The position numbers were made by a program, and so were the translations under genes. DNA of 64,000 bases from Candidatus Binatia bacterium (GTDB lineage Bacteria > Desulfobacterota > Binatia > UBA9968 > JAJDTQ01): assembly GCA_951813575.1 (NCBI GenBank), contig OX638375.1:1751042-1815041 (forward strand), given 5' to 3'. Below are positions 1 through 6,937 of the stretch, piece after piece (position 1 is the stretch's first letter; every line of letters begins with the position of its first letter). The notes beneath the pieces are model-generated. The model saw nothing but the letters and a program-made list of their open reading frames with translations. It made no database searches and was not told where the DNA came from.

Positions 1-349
1 CCTCCCAATCGTCGTCGAAACTCTCGATGGCCTCGTCCAGCGAGGCGTAGAACTCGAACGCCCTGTCCATGCCCACCACCCGGAAGATATCCTTCAGGTA
101 GGGGCTCATGCCCGAGAGCTTCAGGTCGCCGTTCATCTCGCGCAGCAGGTTCAGGCGGTCCAGCAACACCCCGATGCTCAGGTAGTTGATATGGTCCACC
201 GCCTTCAGATTCAGAACGACCTTGAGACGCTCCTTCTCGATCAGGCCTCCGATCATGTCCTTGATCCGCACCATTTCCCGGAGATCGATATCGCCGTTGA
301 CGTCGATCACCGCGATGTCCTGAATGGGCTTCCTGTCGAGTCCAAGCAT
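1..349 (-). CDS. STAS-domain protein (anti-sigma factor antagonist-like), C-terminus off the window
   Basis: At least 116 residues are visible, with the end beyond the left edge. The pattern is that of a single STAS domain: a central hydrophobic segment followed by IGVLLDRL, then NGDLKLSGMSP and a C-terminal helix. Such proteins normally bind anti-sigma or RsbW-like kinases and are switched by phosphorylation of a Ser/Thr in a D-S-S-G-like loop. Here the loop reads INYLSIG; aligned with SpoIIAA the phosphoserine position is Leu and the following Gly is Ser, so the classical switch seems altered. It starts ATG 35 bases after mraZ and is probably cotranscribed with it. An anti-sigma partner is not visible in the window. 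Confidence 0.8.
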   Translation of the reverse strand, partial: MLGLDRKPIQDIAVIDVNGDIDLREMVRIKDMIGGLIEKERLKVVLNLKAVDHINYLSIGVLLDRLNLLREMNGDLKLSGMSPYLKDIFRVVGMDRAFEFYASLDEAIESFDDDWE

Positions 350-384
350 GGACCGCTCCTTTCTTTCGGGGCCTTCCCCAGGGC

Positions 385-846
385 CTACAAGCCCAGGTCG
401 GTGAAGGAATCCGGATCTTCCATGAGTTGCTCTTCGGCCTCCGTGAACACCTTGTCCCAGGCGTCCCTGTCCCAGATGCGAAACTTCTCGGCGGCCGCCA
501 CCAGCATGACGTCGCGCTTGAGGTCCGCGTACTTGCGCAGGGTGGGCGGGATGAGGATGCGGCCGTGGGTGTCCGCCGCGCACTCCGTCGCCCCGCCAAG
601 ATAGTAGGTCTGAAACCGCACCATCCGGGCGTCGAACTTGGGCTTGCCGCGGACCGCCTCCTCCAGGGCCAGCCACTCGTCCAGCGGATAGACATCGAGG
701 CACCGCTTGGAGCTGACGACGAAGTTTGTGATAATGAGCCGATCGTCGCCTTTGCCCAGGAGGACTTCGCGATACTTGGCCGGAATGCTCAAGCGCCCCT
801 TGGTATCGATCGTATGCTCGTATCTGCCGCGAAACATGCCTGACAC
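385..846 (-). CDS. mraZ: Transcriptional regulator MraZ
   Basis: The protein has 153 residues, the usual MraZ length, and begins MSGMFRGRYEHTIDTKGRLS, the typical start of this family; two SpoVT/AbrB-like swapped-hairpin repeats follow (DTKGRLSIP near residue 15 and DTHGRILIP near residue 92). MraZ is a DNA-binding protein that represses the division and cell-wall (dcw) operon it heads, including its own gene. The promoter upstream carries MraZ-type boxes, which supports autoregulation. Unusually, the next gene is a STAS protein rather than rsmH; the rest of a dcw cluster, if present, would lie beyond the left edge. Confidence 0.96.
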   Translation of the reverse strand: MSGMFRGRYEHTIDTKGRLSIPAKYREVLLGKGDDRLIITNFVVSSKRCLDVYPLDEWLALEEAVRGKPKFDARMVRFQTYYLGGATECAADTHGRILIPPTLRKYADLKRDVMLVAAAEKFRIWDRDAWDKVFTEAEEQLMEDPDSFTDLGL

Positions 847-850
847 CGTA

Positions 851-914
851 TGGGATTTTATCCCACTTTATCCCACCTGACGGGAATATAGCCAGACCAT
901 CTCGCCCCTGTCAA
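851..914 (-). promoter_or_regulatory. mraZ promoter with MraZ boxes
   Basis: Read on the minus strand there is TTGACA (914-909), an 18-base spacer and TATATT (890-885), a good sigma-70 promoter. Just downstream come two direct TGGGA repeats with a 10-base period (875-871 and 865-861), followed by an inverted TCCCA (855-851). Direct TGGGN repeats separated by 5 bases are the known MraZ operator in E. coli. Their position over the start of transcription predicts autorepression. Confidence 0.75.
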
Positions 915-1100
915 CACAAAAACGTCATATTTTCCGGAGATCGAGAGCCGGGCCAATTTCCCGAAAAACAGCCGTTTTGCCCTACATCTGGGTGCATGCA
1001 GGGTCTGTCGCGGGCATGGACGACAAGATATGGGTTATGAGGAGTGTTCCGACCGGGCCCGGAACGCCGTGTGGTCCGGCCATTGGCCGAAGGGGGAGTG

Positions 1101-1485
1101 GGGGCCAGCGGATCGTTAAGCCGGATTCTGTAACGCCTCTCAAAAAGAGGCGGGACGGTCATTCATCTTGCCCCGTGGTTGCCCACGGGGTCCAGCGACC
1201 TTACCCGAGGGTTTTCGGGCGGACGACCCGACCCTCCTATTTGGTCTTGCTCCGGGTGGGGTTTACCATGCATCCGCCATCACTGACGGACCGGTGAGCT
1301 CTTACCTCGCCTTTTCAACCTTACCCGAGGGTCCGGTTCGACCCGGAGCCCGCCGGGCGGTGTGTTTTCTGTGGCACTTTCCCCCGATCGCTCGAGGCCG
1401 CCGTTAACGGCCACCCTGTCCTGTGGAGTCCGGACTTTCCTCCTCCGCGTTGCCGCGGAAGCGACCGTCTGATCCGCTGTCCCCG
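1101..1485 (-). ncRNA. rnpB: RNase P RNA (bacterial type A)
   Basis: On the minus strand the conserved GAGGAAAGTCCGGACTCC segment lies near the 5' end and ACAGAATCCGGCTTA near the 3' end, both hallmarks of the RNase P catalytic core. The ends pair as helix P1: CAGCGGATC near 1479 with GATCCGCTG near 1106, extended by GGGG/CCCC. The length of about 385 nt fits a type A RNA. It is the ribozyme that removes 5' leaders from tRNA precursors. It follows the zinc-ribbon gene by about 60 bases on the same strand and may share its transcript. End points are estimated from the P1 pairing. Confidence 0.95.
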
Positions 1486-1548
1486 AGACTCAGTTTCCCG
1501 GTTACCGGGCGAGGTTGCAACCCCTGGGAACCCGCTACGGGATTGCAG

Positions 1549-2283
1549 CTACGGCTGCCCCCCTTGTTCAGGGGCCGGCGGGTTGTAGAAGAGGATGCGC
1601 TGGCAGCTCGGACAGAGATTGACGCGCTCGTTGCGAAGCACGTCGTTCCATAGCTGCGGCGGGATATTCATGTAACAGGCCTGGCATATGGCCGACGACA
1701 CGGCGACCACCGCGGTGCCGCCGCGCCGGTCGAAGAGCATCTCGTACTTTCCCATGAGATCGTCGTTGAGACGCGACGCCGTCGCTTCGCGCGCGTCGCG
1801 CGTCTGCGCGATCTTGTCCTCCATGGCGGCGACCTCCGCCTCCAGGGACTCCCTCTTGCCGTTCCAGTCATCCCGGAGGCCGGTGAGCTCTTCCTCTTTC
1901 TGCTTCAGGATCTCCTCCTGCCCCTCCAGGTCGGTCATGACCTCGATCAGCTCCTCCTCGACGATGGAGTTGGACTCCTTGATCGCCCCGATCTCGCGCT
2001 GCAGCGCCTGCAACTCCTTGATATTCTTGATCTGGTTCATGCGCATGCGCTTCTCGGTGGCCTTTCGGCTGGCATCGTGGATGGTCTGTTCCTTGCCCTT
2101 CCGAACTCCGTCCTTCTCCTCCCACGCATCCCTCAACGTCTTCACCTCCGCCGCCAGACGGGCAATTTCGCCCTCGCGCCGTTCGATTTCCTTGACCCGT
2201 TCCGTTTGCGCGTCCTTGTGCTTCTTCACCTCCAGATCGATTCCTTGAAGCACAGCCAATGTTTCCAACTGCTCGCGCAACAC
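1549..2283 (-). CDS. Coiled-coil protein with C-terminal C4 zinc ribbon (zf-RING_7 type)
   Basis: The 244-residue protein has a long charged coiled-coil from about residue 5 to 180 (many Glu/Lys/Arg heptads) and a C-terminal zinc ribbon with CQAC and CPSC pairs about 25 residues apart, ending in a short Pro/Gln tail. This is the conserved bacterial 'C4-type zinc ribbon domain protein' family, often found beside rnpB as here; its function is not established. The start is GTG with GGAGG five to eight bases upstream. It has its own promoter and a leader containing a terminator-like hairpin, so expression of this gene and rnpB may be attenuated. Confidence 0.85.
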   Translation of the reverse strand: MLREQLETLAVLQGIDLEVKKHKDAQTERVKEIERREGEIARLAAEVKTLRDAWEEKDGVRKGKEQTIHDASRKATEKRMRMNQIKNIKELQALQREIGAIKESNSIVEEELIEVMTDLEGQEEILKQKEEELTGLRDDWNGKRESLEAEVAAMEDKIAQTRDAREATASRLNDDLMGKYEMLFDRRGGTAVVAVSSAICQACYMNIPPQLWNDVLRNERVNLCPSCQRILFYNPPAPEQGGQP

Positions 2284-2310
2284 AGCTACCCTCCGGTCGT
2301 GGGACGCCTG

Positions 2311-2346
2311 AAAAAAAGAACCGCACCTCAGCGGGTGCAGTTCTTT
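2311..2346 (-). terminator. Terminator-like hairpin in the leader of the zinc-ribbon gene
   Basis: On the minus strand AAAGAACTGCACC and GGTGCGGTTCTTT form a long stem, followed by a run of seven T residues. It lies between the promoter near 2408-2437 and the zinc-ribbon ribosome-binding site, so it could end a small RNA of about 90 nt or attenuate the zinc-ribbon/rnpB transcript. It is a canonical intrinsic terminator in shape. Confidence 0.75.
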
Positions 2347-2407
2347 CCATACGGATCCGGGCTGTCTTGTCGTGTTCGATCGGCCTTTTGTCTCATGCTT
2401 TGAACGT

Positions 2408-2437
2408 ATCCTATCGAATATTCCATGTATTTGTCAA
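2408..2437 (-). promoter_or_regulatory. Promoter for zinc-ribbon/rnpB unit or a small RNA
   Basis: The minus strand reads TTGACA (2437-2432), an 18-base spacer and TAGGAT (2413-2408), a plausible sigma-70 promoter. Transcription would start near 2400 and run about 117 bases before the zinc-ribbon GTG. Confidence 0.55.
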
Positions 2438-2468
2438 AGGCCGGCGGGGATCGGATTCCCCGCGGCCG
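2438..2468 (-). terminator. Terminator of the FAD-linked oxidase gene
   Basis: Immediately after the oxidase stop the minus strand has GGCCGCGGGGA and TCCCCGCCGGCC forming a very stable GC-rich hairpin, followed only by TTT. The short T run makes it a weaker intrinsic terminator, but the position right after the stop codon is typical. It abuts the TTGACA of the next promoter. Confidence 0.5.
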
Positions 2469-3815
2469 TCATAGGCCCAGCTTGCCGGGGTTCATGATGC
2501 CGTTGGGGTCCAGACAGCGTTTCACCGAACGCATGAGCTCCAGGCTGTCGCCGTGCTCGCCCGCCATGAGCGGCGCGAGCTTGACCCCCACCCCGTGGCA
2601 GTACTCCACCGATCCGCCGAACCCGTGAACGTTTCGAAGGAGTGCCAGGATCGCATCGCCGAGCTCGGCCCGGGCCGGCTCGCCGCCCTCCTTGGACAGG
2701 CGCAAGGAGAAGAGCTCGGGGCCGGTCCAGAGCCCGCTTTCCCGGAAACGCACTCCGCGCGCGGCGGCCAGGGCGATGGCCTCCCGCCGGAAGGCGAGCA
2801 CCCTGGATGCGGGCAGGGCCACGTGCACCCAATCCTGATGCACTCCGGCCGCGCTCCGGCGCCGCCGCTCGCTTCGGTCGGCGGCGAACCGCCGGGCGGC
2901 GGCGTGGCGTTCCTCCCAAAACCGCCGAGCCTTCTCGTCGTCCAGTCGCTCGCCCCCGCGCTCCAGGCACGCGGCCAGCGCCACACCTTCCTCCGCGGCC
3001 ACGAGCTCCGCTTTCCCCTCGAACCCGAGGTAGAGGATCGACGGTCCCTCCGGATCCTCCGTCTCGTCGCCGTAATCCAGCAGGATCGGCCTCAGGCCGG
3101 CGGCAAAGAACTCCCGGACGGCCTCGAAACCCCGTGTGAAGGACTCGAAACGGAAGGCATGGAGCGACCTCGCCTCGGGAACAGGAAACACCCGCAAGGT
3201 CACTTCCGTAAGGATCCCGAAGCAGCCCTCGCCGCCGATGAACAGGTGGTTGAGATCGATTCCGGTGGAACTCTTGGCGACGGGGCGGGTACGGCAGAGC
3301 TCTCCCTGGGGCAGCACCGCCTCCACCCCCAGCACCTGGCTCCCCATGGAGCCGTACTTGCCGCCGCGATAACCGAGGCTGTTGGTGGAAACCGCCCCGC
3401 CCACCGTGGCCACCGGCAACGTCCAGGGGTCGTGGCCCAGCATGAGGCCGGACTCCCGGAGCCGGAATTCGAGGTCCTCCAGCACCACCCCGGCCTGGAC
3501 CCGGGCCGTGAATGCGATTGCGTCGACCTCCAGCACGGCGTTCAGCCGTCTCAGGTCCACGACGATGCCCGGGGTCAGCGACGCCGCCGCCCCCATGAGC
3601 CCCGACCCTCCGCCGTAGGGCACCAGCGGCAAGCGGGCCTCGTTGGCCACGCCCACGACCGTCTGCACCTCGGCCGCGGAGGCCGGGGTGCAGACGCACA
3701 GGGGATGAACGGGGACGATGGGATGACCGGGATGAATGCGGCTCGGGCTCAGCGCATCCCAGGAATACAGGTCCGTCTCATCCGCGTCCGTAAGGACCGA
3801 GGCGGCACCCAGCAA
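2469..3815 (-). CDS. FAD-linked oxidase of the GlcD/vanillyl-alcohol oxidase type
   Basis: About 448 residues. The N-terminal PCMH-type FAD-binding domain shows VPYGGGSGLMG near residue 65 and TVGGAVSTNSLGYRGGKYGS near 135, then GGEGCFGILTEVTLRVFP near 195; the C-terminus ends DPNGIMNPGKLGL, the classic end of the FAD-oxidase C domain. The family oxidises 2-hydroxy acids such as glycolate or D-lactate, or forms alkyl-glycerone-phosphate; the substrate here is unknown. The only ordinary start near the N-terminus is TTG at 3815. The frame stays open for about 20 more codons upstream without ATG or GTG, and a GGAG motif lies in that stretch, so the true start is uncertain. No iron-sulfur partner (GlcF) is adjacent. 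Confidence 0.85.
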   Translation of the reverse strand: MLGAASVLTDADETDLYSWDALSPSRIHPGHPIVPVHPLCVCTPASAAEVQTVVGVANEARLPLVPYGGGSGLMGAAASLTPGIVVDLRRLNAVLEVDAIAFTARVQAGVVLEDLEFRLRESGLMLGHDPWTLPVATVGGAVSTNSLGYRGGKYGSMGSQVLGVEAVLPQGELCRTRPVAKSSTGIDLNHLFIGGEGCFGILTEVTLRVFPVPEARSLHAFRFESFTRGFEAVREFFAAGLRPILLDYGDETEDPEGPSILYLGFEGKAELVAAEEGVALAACLERGGERLDDEKARRFWEERHAAARRFAADRSERRRRSAAGVHQDWVHVALPASRVLAFRREAIALAAARGVRFRESGLWTGPELFSLRLSKEGGEPARAELGDAILALLRNVHGFGGSVEYCHGVGVKLAPLMAGEHGDSLELMRSVKRCLDPNGIMNPGKLGL

Positions 3816-3891
3816 GCCGGCGAGCCGGCGGATCGTATCGGCGTGTTTTCCCGTAACTCCTCGAAAATACAGGGATCAGGACCGTGACCCG

Positions 3892-4662
3892 TCAGTGCAT
3901 GTTCTGACCCCCATCCACCACCAGGGTCTGGCCGGTCATGAAATCCGCCAGCGGCGAGGACATGAACAGCACGCCGCCGACGAGGTCCTGGGGCACCTGC
4001 ACCCGCTTCAGGGCGCGCGTGCCGATGTTGCTCTGGCGCATCTTGAGGATCTCCTCGGTGGGGTTCTCCTCGGACAGGGTCGACCCCGGGCACAGGATGT
4101 TGACCTGGATGTTGTCCTCGCCCACCTCCCGCGCCAGGGTGCGGCTGAATCCCATCACTCCGGCCTTGGAGGCGACGTAGTGGATGCGTCCGGGAGGGCC
4201 GTAGAGCGCGGTGCCGGAAGCGATGTTGATGATCTTGCCTGATTTCTGCTGGCGCATCTGCGGCAGCACCGCGCGGCAGCACAGGAACACTCCCTTGAGG
4301 TTCACCGACATGAGCTTGTCCCACTCCTCGATGCTGATCTCCTCGATGCGGCCGCGGCTCATGGGAATGGTGGCGAAGATCGACGCGTTGTTGATGAGCA
4401 CATCCACCCGGCCGAAACGCTCGACGGTCTTGGCCACCATCTGTTTGGTGGACTCATCGTCGGACACGTCCACGGTCACCGCCATGGAGCCGGCCTCGCT
4501 CAGCTTCCCGAGGTCCGCCGCCACCTTCTCCGCCGCGTCGCCGTCGATGTCCGCCACCACCACCCTGGAACCGGACTTGGTAAACCCCTCGGCGTAGGCC
4601 TTGCCGATGCCGTGGCCGCCGCCCGTGATGATCACCACCTTGCCCTGCAACCCTTCGATCAT
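3892..4662 (-). CDS. Short-chain dehydrogenase/reductase
   Basis: A 256-residue classical SDR. It has the Rossmann glycine motif TGGGHGIG (13-20), acidic residue D38 after the second strand (favouring NAD), NNAS (91-94), structural N121 and the catalytic set S149, Y162, K166. The C-terminus VVDGGQNMH is typical. Such enzymes oxidise or reduce a secondary alcohol/ketone in the cytoplasm; the substrate cannot be read. It starts ATG with GAGGAG upstream. It is divergent from hyuA and precedes the FAD-linked oxidase on the same strand with 76 bases between, so the two may act on one substrate. Confidence 0.88.
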   Translation of the reverse strand: MIEGLQGKVVIITGGGHGIGKAYAEGFTKSGSRVVVADIDGDAAEKVAADLGKLSEAGSMAVTVDVSDDESTKQMVAKTVERFGRVDVLINNASIFATIPMSRGRIEEISIEEWDKLMSVNLKGVFLCCRAVLPQMRQQKSGKIINIASGTALYGPPGRIHYVASKAGVMGFSRTLAREVGEDNIQVNILCPGSTLSEENPTEEILKMRQSNIGTRALKRVQVPQDLVGGVLFMSSPLADFMTGQTLVVDGGQNMH

Positions 4663-4827
4663 GAGTGCTCCTCTCAGGCCCAGCCGGTGGCCCGCAACAG
4701 GCGGGGGGCCGGCGCGGCCGCGAAACGATTATGGCACTGCTCTATCGGGAAACCGAGGCCAGTGTCAAGCGGCCCGCACGGCGCGAAAACCCGCCCCCGG
4801 AACAGCCGCTCCGGGCCTTCCCCGGCC

Positions 4828-4851
4828 CGATTTGTACCCCCTGACAAATCG
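4828..4851. promoter_or_regulatory. Inverted repeat, possible operator between SDR and hyuA
   Basis: CGATTTGT and ACAAATCG form a perfect 8-base inverted repeat around an 8-base centre, 17 bases before the hyuA start in the SDR/hyuA divergent region. Its size and TTGT/ACAA arms resemble GntR-type operators. No regulator gene is adjacent, so this is only a candidate. Confidence 0.4.
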
Positions 4852-4867
4852 TGTTAACGCAACTCCG

Positions 4868-6937
4868 ATGGCGCGATATCGAGTAGCGGTGGACACCGGA
4901 GGCACCTTTTCCGACTTCGTTTTCTTCAACGAGGACAGCGGCGAGATCGGCATCACCAAGGTGCCCTCCACCCCCAGGGAGCCGTTCCAGGCGGTGCTCA
5001 ACGGGGTGCAGGAATTGCTCGACCAGGGCGTGCCGGCCGGGGACGTCAGCTTCTTCTCCCACGGCACCACCGTGGGCACCAACGCCCTTTTGGAGGAGAA
5101 GGGAGCGGTCACCGGCCTGCTGGTGACCGAGGGTTTCCGCGGCATCTACGAGGTCATGGAGCAGAGCCGGGGCTACGGGCCGGTCACCTACGACCTCTTC
5201 TTCGAGAAACCCCGGCTGCTGGCCACCCCGTACACCACCGAAGAGGTCCGGGAGCGGGTGGATTTCCAGGGCAACGCGCTGACGCCGGTGGACCCGGAGC
5301 AGGCGGCGGAAGCCGTCCGGCGCCTCAAGGCCAAGGGCGTCGAGTCCGTGGCCGTGTGCTTCCTGTTCTCCTTCCTGAACCTCGAACACGAGCTGGCGGT
5401 GAAGAAGATCATGGCCGAGGAGTTCCCGGACGCGAGCCTGTCGCTCTCCTGCGAGGTGCTGCCGCAGATCCGGGAGTTCTACCGGATGAGCACCACGGTC
5501 ATCAACGCCTACATCGCGCCGGTGATGAGCCGCTACCTGAACGCGCTGGAGACGCACCTGCGGGAGCTGGGGGTCGCCACCCCGCAGCTCTATATCATGC
5601 AGTCCAACGGCGGCGTGTCGACCTTCAGGACCTCGGCCCGCATTCCCGTGGCCACGGTGCTCTCCGGGCCCGCGGGCGGCGTGATCTCGTCCCTGGGGGC
5701 CAGCGGCAAGGTGGGCATCGACAACATCATCACCTTCGACATGGGCGGAACCAGTTGCGACGTGGCGCTGATCCACCAGGGCCGCCCGGTGGTCACCACC
5801 CAAGGGCGCATCAGCCAGCGGCCCATCAGCCTGCCCATGCTGGACATCCACACGGTGAGCGCCGGCGGCGGCACCATCGCCCGCATCGACTCGGTGGGGG
5901 CGCTCCAGGTGGGACCCGACAGCGCCGGCGCCGATCCCGGCCCGATCTGCTACGACCGGGGCGGCGAGAACGCCACCGTCACCGACGCCAACGTCATCCT
6001 GGGGGTGCTGGACCCCGACCACTTCCTCGGCGGGCGACTCACCCTCGACAAGGCCAAGGCGGAATCGCTGGTGGAGGAGAAAATAGCCAAACCGCTGGGG
6101 CTGAGCCTCCACGAGGCCGCAGACGGCGTGCTCCGGATCATCAACGTCAAGATGGAAGAGGCCATCAAGGCGGTTTCGTCCCAGCGCGGCTACGACATCC
6201 GGGAGTTCACCCTGGTGGCCTTCGGCGGCGCCGGACCCATGCACGCCGGCCGGCTGGCGCTGGACCTGGGCATCCCGACGCTGCTGGTGCCGCTCACGCC
6301 CGGCGTCCATTCCGCCTTGGGGCTGCTCATGTCGGACGTGAAGCACGACCACGTGCGCTCCAAGCTGGCGCCCATGCAGGAGCTGGAACCGGACGACATC
6401 AACACCTTGTTCGACCAGCTCATGGGCCAGGCCCGCGAGGAGCTGTCCGGAGAGGGGTTTTCGGACGAGGAGATCGTGCTGACGCCCTACCTGGACCTTC
6501 GCTACGCCGGGCAGGGCTACGAGCTAACGGTGCCCTGCCCGACTCCCCCGCTCAAGCCCGAGGACATGGAACTGGCGCAGCAGCGCTTCCACGAGGCCCA
6601 CGAGCACGCCCACGGCCACAAGGCCGAGTCCGAACCGGTGGAGCTGGTGAGCGTGCGGCTGGTGTCCGAGGGGCGCGTGCCGAAGACCCGGCTGTCGCCG
6701 TTCCAGGCCACCGGGGCAAGCGTGGACGACGCCCGCACCGGCGAGCGCCGGCTCTTCTTCGGCCGGGACCTGGGCTTCCAGGACACGCCCATCTACGACC
6801 GCGACCGCCTGGAGCCGGGACACGAGCTGGCCGGCCCGGCGGTGGTGGAGCAGATGGACACCACCACCGTCATTCATCCGGAACAGCAGGCGCGGGTGGA
6901 CGACTACAAGAACCTGATCATCACGGCGAAAGGGTAA
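4868..6937 (+). CDS. hyuA: Hydantoinase/oxoprolinase subunit A (ATP-binding)
   Basis: 689 residues, the usual length of HyuA-type proteins. The N-terminus carries the actin/Hsp70-like phosphate loop VDTGGTFSD (8-16), followed by SHGTTVGTNALLE near residue 65, and a second nucleotide motif TFDMGGTSCDVALI near residue 290; FGGAGPMHA lies near 453. HyuA with HyuB hydrolyses five-membered cyclic amides such as hydantoins or 5-oxoproline using ATP, and relatives act in acetone/acetophenone carboxylation; the substrate is not predictable here. ATG was chosen because the family begins M-x-x-(Y/R)-R-V-A-V-D-T-G-G; no clear Shine-Dalgarno precedes it. It is followed after 10 bases by hyuB. Confidence 0.92.
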   Translation: MARYRVAVDTGGTFSDFVFFNEDSGEIGITKVPSTPREPFQAVLNGVQELLDQGVPAGDVSFFSHGTTVGTNALLEEKGAVTGLLVTEGFRGIYEVMEQSRGYGPVTYDLFFEKPRLLATPYTTEEVRERVDFQGNALTPVDPEQAAEAVRRLKAKGVESVAVCFLFSFLNLEHELAVKKIMAEEFPDASLSLSCEVLPQIREFYRMSTTVINAYIAPVMSRYLNALETHLRELGVATPQLYIMQSNGGVSTFRTSARIPVATVLSGPAGGVISSLGASGKVGIDNIITFDMGGTSCDVALIHQGRPVVTTQGRISQRPISLPMLDIHTVSAGGGTIARIDSVGALQVGPDSAGADPGPICYDRGGENATVTDANVILGVLDPDHFLGGRLTLDKAKAESLVEEKIAKPLGLSLHEAADGVLRIINVKMEEAIKAVSSQRGYDIREFTLVAFGGAGPMHAGRLALDLGIPTLLVPLTPGVHSALGLLMSDVKHDHVRSKLAPMQELEPDDINTLFDQLMGQAREELSGEGFSDEEIVLTPYLDLRYAGQGYELTVPCPTPPLKPEDMELAQQRFHEAHEHAHGHKAESEPVELVSVRLVSEGRVPKTRLSPFQATGASVDDARTGERRLFFGRDLGFQDTPIYDRDRLEPGHELAGPAVVEQMDTTTVIHPEQQARVDDYKNLIITAKG

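Follow-up and report, generated by a model that had tools for sequence, protein, structure and literature searches.

The zinc-ribbon gene in the 64,000-nucleotide stretch of Candidatus Binatia DNA analysed here (the window) is preceded on the minus strand by a promoter, a short upstream ORF (uORF) and an intrinsic terminator hairpin whose core sequence is invariant across the order (UBA9968) to which the genome belongs. On balance, we favour reading this arrangement as a cis-acting transcription attenuator that is controlled, in this order, by the uORF. The element is probably an unrecognised on/off gate and not an ordinary terminator.

A promoter followed by a hairpin with seven T residues and then by the ribosome-binding site (RBS) and GTG codon of the zinc-ribbon gene had been proposed in a sequence-only reading, and this layout is confirmed on the minus strand. 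The leader promoter (2408..2437) is sigma-70-like, TTGACA-18-TAGGAT, with TTGACA at 2437-2432, TAGGAT at 2413-2408, an 18-nt spacer and 10 of 12 consensus matches. It is one of two promoter-like sites in window positions 1-5000, both on the minus strand; the second (TTGACA-18-TATATT, 885-914) lies upstream of mraZ (385-846). Transcription is predicted to start at about 2401. Approximately 5 nt past this point begins a uORF of 22 codons (2328..2396, minus strand), which was absent from the sequence-only reading; its ATG is at 2396-2394, its TGA (2330-2328) is inside the hairpin loop and its translation is MRQKADRTRQDSPDPYGKNCTR. The hairpin (2315..2346, minus strand), assigned from folding and order-wide conservation, has a 13-bp stem, whose 5' arm contains UGCACC, and a loop of 6 nt. 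Its sequence is AAAGAACTGCACC-CGCTGA-GGTGCGGTTCTTT, with pairs running from 2346:2315 to 2334:2327, and the fragment containing the core folds at -18.2 kcal/mol. The T-run (seven T, 2311..2317) and the RBS GGAGGG (2289..2294), both read from the sequence on the minus strand, are followed by the gene itself (1549..2283, minus strand, GTG start at 2283), which encodes a C4-type zinc-ribbon protein of 244 amino acids with the PF24481 (CT398_CC) and PF02591 domains. We take the protein family to be COG1579/PF02591, described as predicted nucleic-acid-binding. The RNase P RNA gene, rnpB (RF00010; 1101..1480, minus strand), starts 68 nt beyond the zinc-ribbon stop codon.

A GC-containing stem followed by a U-run, the hallmark of an intrinsic (Rho-independent) terminator, is found in the window and at all 31 loci of the order, with at least five consecutive T in every leader. 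A terminator scan flagged the plus-strand face of the hairpin as terminator-like and missed the minus-strand face, probably because the outer A-U pairs consume part of the T-run. Folding of the entire leader is just modestly more stable than that of shuffled sequences (z of -1.5 and -2.2). The hairpin pattern, with up to three mismatches allowed, has no other match in the window and none in 100 shuffles. A generic terminator of this genome was ruled out, as TGCACC..GGTGC alone is not enriched (41 occurrences versus 75 in reversed controls) and the pattern combined with the T-run is confined to a single site in the 4.2-Mb genome. Comparison of the leader with 4227 Rfam models gave no family at the gathering threshold, which in the window is reached by rnpB alone; seven lax matches in 2270-2480 scored 12-19 bits against gathering scores of 45-90. 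No tRNA remnant was detected in the leader by the lax Rfam scan, nor by ARAGORN in five focal loci.

Conservation was assessed in 35 genomes of the order, in which zinc-ribbon genes were found by protein and the best match per genome was used. The protein is encoded in 31 of the 35 (G008, G025, G026 and G027 had no match; G032 had a second, distant one). Upstream of all 31 genes there is a promoter box, the hairpin, the T-run and a purine-rich, RBS-like stretch. The -35 region reads TTTGAC in 30 leaders and TTTAC in the other (L020), and the TA of the -10 region is invariant. The 5' arm TGCACC is identical at all 31 loci, whereas the outer base pairs covary. Poor conservation of the hairpin was what the sequence-only reading had named as speaking against it, and the hairpin proved to be very strongly kept across the order. 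TGCACC..GGTGC with T5 occurs at the zinc-ribbon locus in 27 of the 35 genomes, with two extra matches elsewhere (G034:C154 and G024:C116); the eight genomes without it are four congeners of the window genome, in which the 3' arm is GGGGCGG, and the four that had no zinc-ribbon match.

Pair counts and a covariance model were based on an alignment of 22 leaders (A3; all except L022 and the window's genus). In these, 96.6% of the cells in the 12-bp stem are paired, three outer pairs show changes in both partners, and six core pairs are constant. In another alignment (A2) RNAalifold gave no pairs, probably because MAFFT had misregistered the 3' arm of the window's genus. The covariance model, built without this genus, recovered the window copy as the only match in its genome (E 3.7e-4). 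It matched 28 of the 35 order genomes and detected no further full-length copy at another site in any of the 35; three congeners (G001, G003 and G005) have the leader and fall under the threshold. With stricter filters the model matched none of 113 genomes from other orders of the class. As a control, the sequences downstream of tmRNA in the same order share no terminator by eye, even within a genus (24 of 27 full-length loci, omitting L096, L099 and L112, with little or no downstream sequence in L103 and L111). In the upstream regions of three congeners (L002, L005 and L008), CGGACAC(GA) before the terminator is, by eye, a complete or near-complete complement of (TC)GTGTCCG between the terminator and the RBS. 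These stretches could form an enclosing helix, which is not kept in the window.

Between the -10 region and the hairpin, the only columns conserved in at least 90% of the leaders are the T and G of an NTG start codon (30/31 each in A2). An NTG start is present in all 31 leaders, and the first base at this position takes three forms: ATG in L017 and throughout the window's genus, TTG in L019, L022 and L024, and GTG in the other 19. In A2 the column is shared by 29 of the 31, with L017 and L022 within 3 nt; in a MAFFT alignment of the 31 it is shared by 21, the eight congeners being off by one, L017 by three and L022 by one. In every leader the frame that follows has no stop before -14 nt relative to TGCACC, and in 27 it stays open up to TGCACC, the remaining four stopping 6-14 nt short. 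In dinucleotide shuffles of 15 genus representatives, the joint probability of no stop before -14 is 1.6e-4 (L001 and L022 being uninformative), and frames open up to TGCACC number 13 of 15 versus 6.5 expected (P 4e-4). The peptide is not conserved, and close pairs are without sign of purifying selection. The uORF has no fixed frame with respect to the hairpin, the distance from its start to TGCACC being 1 modulo 3 in 16 of the 23 leaders outside the window's genus; TGCACC falls in each of the three frames among the order leaders, which indicates that it is conserved as RNA. No well-placed Shine-Dalgarno sequence was found for the uORF, and its predicted 5' UTR is approximately 5 nt in the window's genus; many leaders outside this genus have GGAG approximately 12 nt before the uORF start (by eye).

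At all 20 order loci scanned, rnpB is downstream of the zinc-ribbon gene, either directly or past an RNase H-like ORF, which belongs to PF13456 in the two tested. From the zinc-ribbon start to rnpB there is no promoter-like site in 17 of these loci and no terminator in any of the 20, in a scan that likewise fails to detect the leader promoters of L016 and L029. Just before rnpB, all eight congeners have TTGC-17-GAAACT by eye (TTGC-N19-GAAACT), which in the window is the non-consensus TTGCAA-17-GAAACT (1492..1520, minus strand). This motif could be rnpB's own promoter and counts against dependence of rnpB on the leader. In L028 (1332-1730) the RNase H-like ORF overlaps the start of rnpB, and L018 and L023 are alike by eye; at such loci the RNase P RNA may thus be processed from a coding transcript. 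In L003 and L004 the interval between the zinc-ribbon gene and rnpB contains a palindrome (CCCTAGTGTCCTGTCT..AGACAGGACACTAGGG in L004) that may be a mobile repeat. Upstream of the zinc-ribbon gene, 18 of 19 loci from other orders of the class (L058-L070 and L072-L076) have a tRNA(CAU) gene, and the hairpin is present at none of the 19.

The terminator is also found elsewhere in the phylum (Desulfobacterota). Among 395 phylum genomes the covariance model gave weak matches in 20 further genomes, seven of which were fetched: four have the order tRNA(CAU), hairpin, zinc-ribbon gene or Nif3 (L117, L118, L121 and L122) and three have the hairpin ahead of aroC. The leader ORF peptides of L117 and L118, from related genomes of the phylum, are similar (MGxTxSSLHGTDxKxIKxxP) and end just before or in the hairpin. 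Sixty zinc-ribbon upstream regions, about one per family from the matches listed (L169 covering only 136 nt), yielded 22 terminator-like hairpins, of which 17, from 11 families, have the exact core; the other five are a one-base variant (L199) and four unlike it. The exact-core terminator was not found in 43 of the 60, in some of which the hairpin may sit ahead of Nif3, outside the fetched stretch. Ten of the regions were not blind, as they or their relatives had model matches (four from family f46, four from family f35, G330 and G484); without them the exact core is found in 10 of 50 regions, or 10 of 14 hairpins.

The pattern occurs in 23 of 30 chosen genomes, at a single place except in G398 and G292, and its reversed control in none; the T6 pattern occurs in 79 of the 395 phylum genomes versus 3 of 395 for the reversed control. 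Twenty further contexts, picked from T6-pattern matches that had not been placed before, comprise 12 with tRNA(CAU), hairpin and Nif3 and/or the zinc-ribbon gene, two before aroC and six others. L225, L231 and L238 are in other contexts and L227 follows an apparent secretin gene (by eye). L223 and L224 were ruled out as members, being the terminators of Mn riboswitches and unrelated. The gene next in line is rnpB at 4 of 14 loci with tRNA(CAU), hairpin and Nif3 or zinc-ribbon gene, six of the fetched stretches being too short to reach it; in L219 and L232-L234 it was not found in the 700 nt or more past the zinc-ribbon gene. In 34 phylum hairpins selected by the core pattern, where the core is invariant by construction, the first outer pair is AU in 20, GC in 12, GU in one and unpaired in one (shuffle mean 26.0 paired; 0/1000 as high). 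Where a tRNA is seen, the gap between it and TGCACC is 12-173 nt. In L162 and L196 the hairpin is 21 and 12 nt past the tRNA, leaving no room for a uORF, which is therefore not essential to the element. At a second, unrelated locus the same TGCACC/GGTGCA terminator stands ahead of aroC, in families f72, f107, f59 and f67 (L213/L120, L214/L119, L215/L116, L222 and L228); where this locus was read, in three genomes, a secretin-like ORF precedes the terminator.

On the attenuation model, a polymerase starting near 2401 would meet an intrinsic terminator that ends approximately 90 nt downstream and precedes the zinc-ribbon gene; genes beyond this one would also be gated if they have no other promoter. 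In this order the short ORF would begin near the transcript 5' end and run to or into the hairpin. By analogy with pyrBI/pyrL of E. coli, a ribosome keeping pace with the polymerase would sit over UGCACC in the 5' arm and permit read-through, whereas a transcript that is not translated would end at the hairpin as an RNA of approximately 90 nt. The position of the ribosome would matter and the peptide would not, and the retention of start codon and open frame but not of the peptide fits control of this kind. According to sections of PMC4824070 and PMC5021804, a terminator in E. coli is suppressed when ribosomes are close to it or within it, as happens in pyrBI, and early terminators depend on pausing for such suppression. 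No polymerase pause signal common to the order was identified; T-rich stretches occur, by eye, in several leaders from outside the window's genus. Ribosome control alone leaves the invariant UGCACC unexplained, and a sequence-specific binder is thus the simplest addition; the core is probably also read by a trans-acting factor, perhaps the zinc-ribbon protein. Since the core is common to the phylum, it is probably older than the uORF. A wider proposal, which we consider rather unlikely, is that of a phylum-wide, undescribed, usually single-copy RNA element at which the zinc-ribbon protein or another dedicated factor would adjust how much of the transcription begun at a tRNA(CAU) or leader promoter continues into the zinc-ribbon genes, as well as into RNase H and RNase P RNA at loci where these are linked. 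A translated uORF would have taken the place of the tRNA in this order, tying the operon, and possibly the supply of RNase P RNA, to translation.

The main rival to uORF-controlled attenuation is autoregulation through the core, in which the zinc-ribbon protein, by putative binding to the UGCACC/GGUGCA hairpin on nascent RNA, would stabilise or block termination without any role for translation. As a full account we hold this to be possible, if somewhat doubtful, and it can coexist with attenuation by the uORF. The invariance of the 5'-arm core at 31/31 order loci while the outer pairs covary speaks for such binding, and the core precedes the zinc-ribbon family in at least 11 phylum families, plus further ones. 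Part of PMC5947703 states that the zinc ribbon of a family member, HP0958, binds flaA mRNA, and a protein with an HP0958-type domain is again said to bind flaA mRNA in an excerpt of PMC13285594; part of PMC8469502 gives COG1579 as predicted to bind nucleic acids and as the commonest operon partner of DUF34/Nif3. However, the gene is present without the hairpin in the 43 phylum regions and at the 19 Binatia loci of other orders, and in some families the hairpin is ahead of aroC instead.

The sequence-only reading had left open a choice between a small RNA and an attenuator. A discrete trans-acting RNA of approximately 90 nt, with the zinc-ribbon gene merely behind it, would account for the promoter and terminator, which fit a unit of that length, for its single copy and for its conserved ends. 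Its body, however, is unconserved apart from the start codon, is kept stop-free and looks translated; it has no Rfam match, it is directly ahead of the zinc-ribbon gene at 31/31 order loci and the covariance model finds no separate full-length copy in the 35 genomes. The small RNA is accordingly improbable, and the constant position of the hairpin ahead of the zinc-ribbon gene favours the attenuator. An ordinary terminator, conserved by descent, that insulates against upstream transcription (from the tRNA(CAU) gene elsewhere and an oxidase gene here) would suit the phylum loci, where the hairpin often follows tRNA(CAU) genes and a terminator is expected. In the window, though, the terminator sits downstream of its own conserved promoter, the sequences after tmRNA are unconserved, and an insulating terminator needs no fixed sequence; we regard simple insulation as no likelier than the small RNA.

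No description of the element was found among the papers listed in searches on zinc-ribbon/rnpB leaders, COG1579 and DUF164, which mostly covered papers outside subscription, and a term search of a survey of premature terminators (PMC2965389) gave no match. The role of COG1579 zinc-ribbon proteins, a widespread group, is unsettled, and the element supplies a concrete RNA target. Its place beside RNase P RNA, and often tRNA(CAU), suggests that tRNA, RNase P and translation may be connected. The terminator stem is kept in sequence across many families, unlike the terminators compared here, and its core has been kept over long evolutionary times.

Among known systems, the pyrBI/pyrL attenuator of E. 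coli is similar in having a short leader ORF that runs through an intrinsic terminator ahead of structural genes, termination being suppressed there by a close ribosome (parts of PMC4824070 and PMC5021804). The leader ORF here likewise extends up to the terminator or into it, with 27 of 31 order leaders open up to TGCACC. It differs from pyrL in its length of 11 to 40 or more codons, its unconserved peptide and its weak initiation signals; moreover, some of the ORFs end shortly before the hairpin or within it, no pause that would sense nucleotides was identified, the core of the terminator does not vary in sequence, and both operon and phylum are different. Amino-acid leader-peptide attenuators (trp, his and ilv type) also combine a leader ORF with a terminator before an operon. 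The 31 translated leaders, however, share no run of regulatory codons (by eye), and folding of the 31 truncated leaders gave no mutually exclusive antiterminator order-wide. The conserved alternative pairings for which the sequence-only reading had looked to aligned related leaders are thus not borne out across the order, a GCATT...AATGC-like pairing being present in about 8 or 9 of the 31 (by eye). Rfam Thr_leader and Leu_leader scored 14.0 and 12.8 bits against gathering scores of 55 and 50. Compared with the rplJL leader of B. subtilis and L10(L12)4, the element is one simple hairpin with no competing structure and its binding is putative, but the two would be alike, on the autogenous alternative, in that a product of the operon controls read-through of its own leader (as described in part of PMC4538822 for rplJL).
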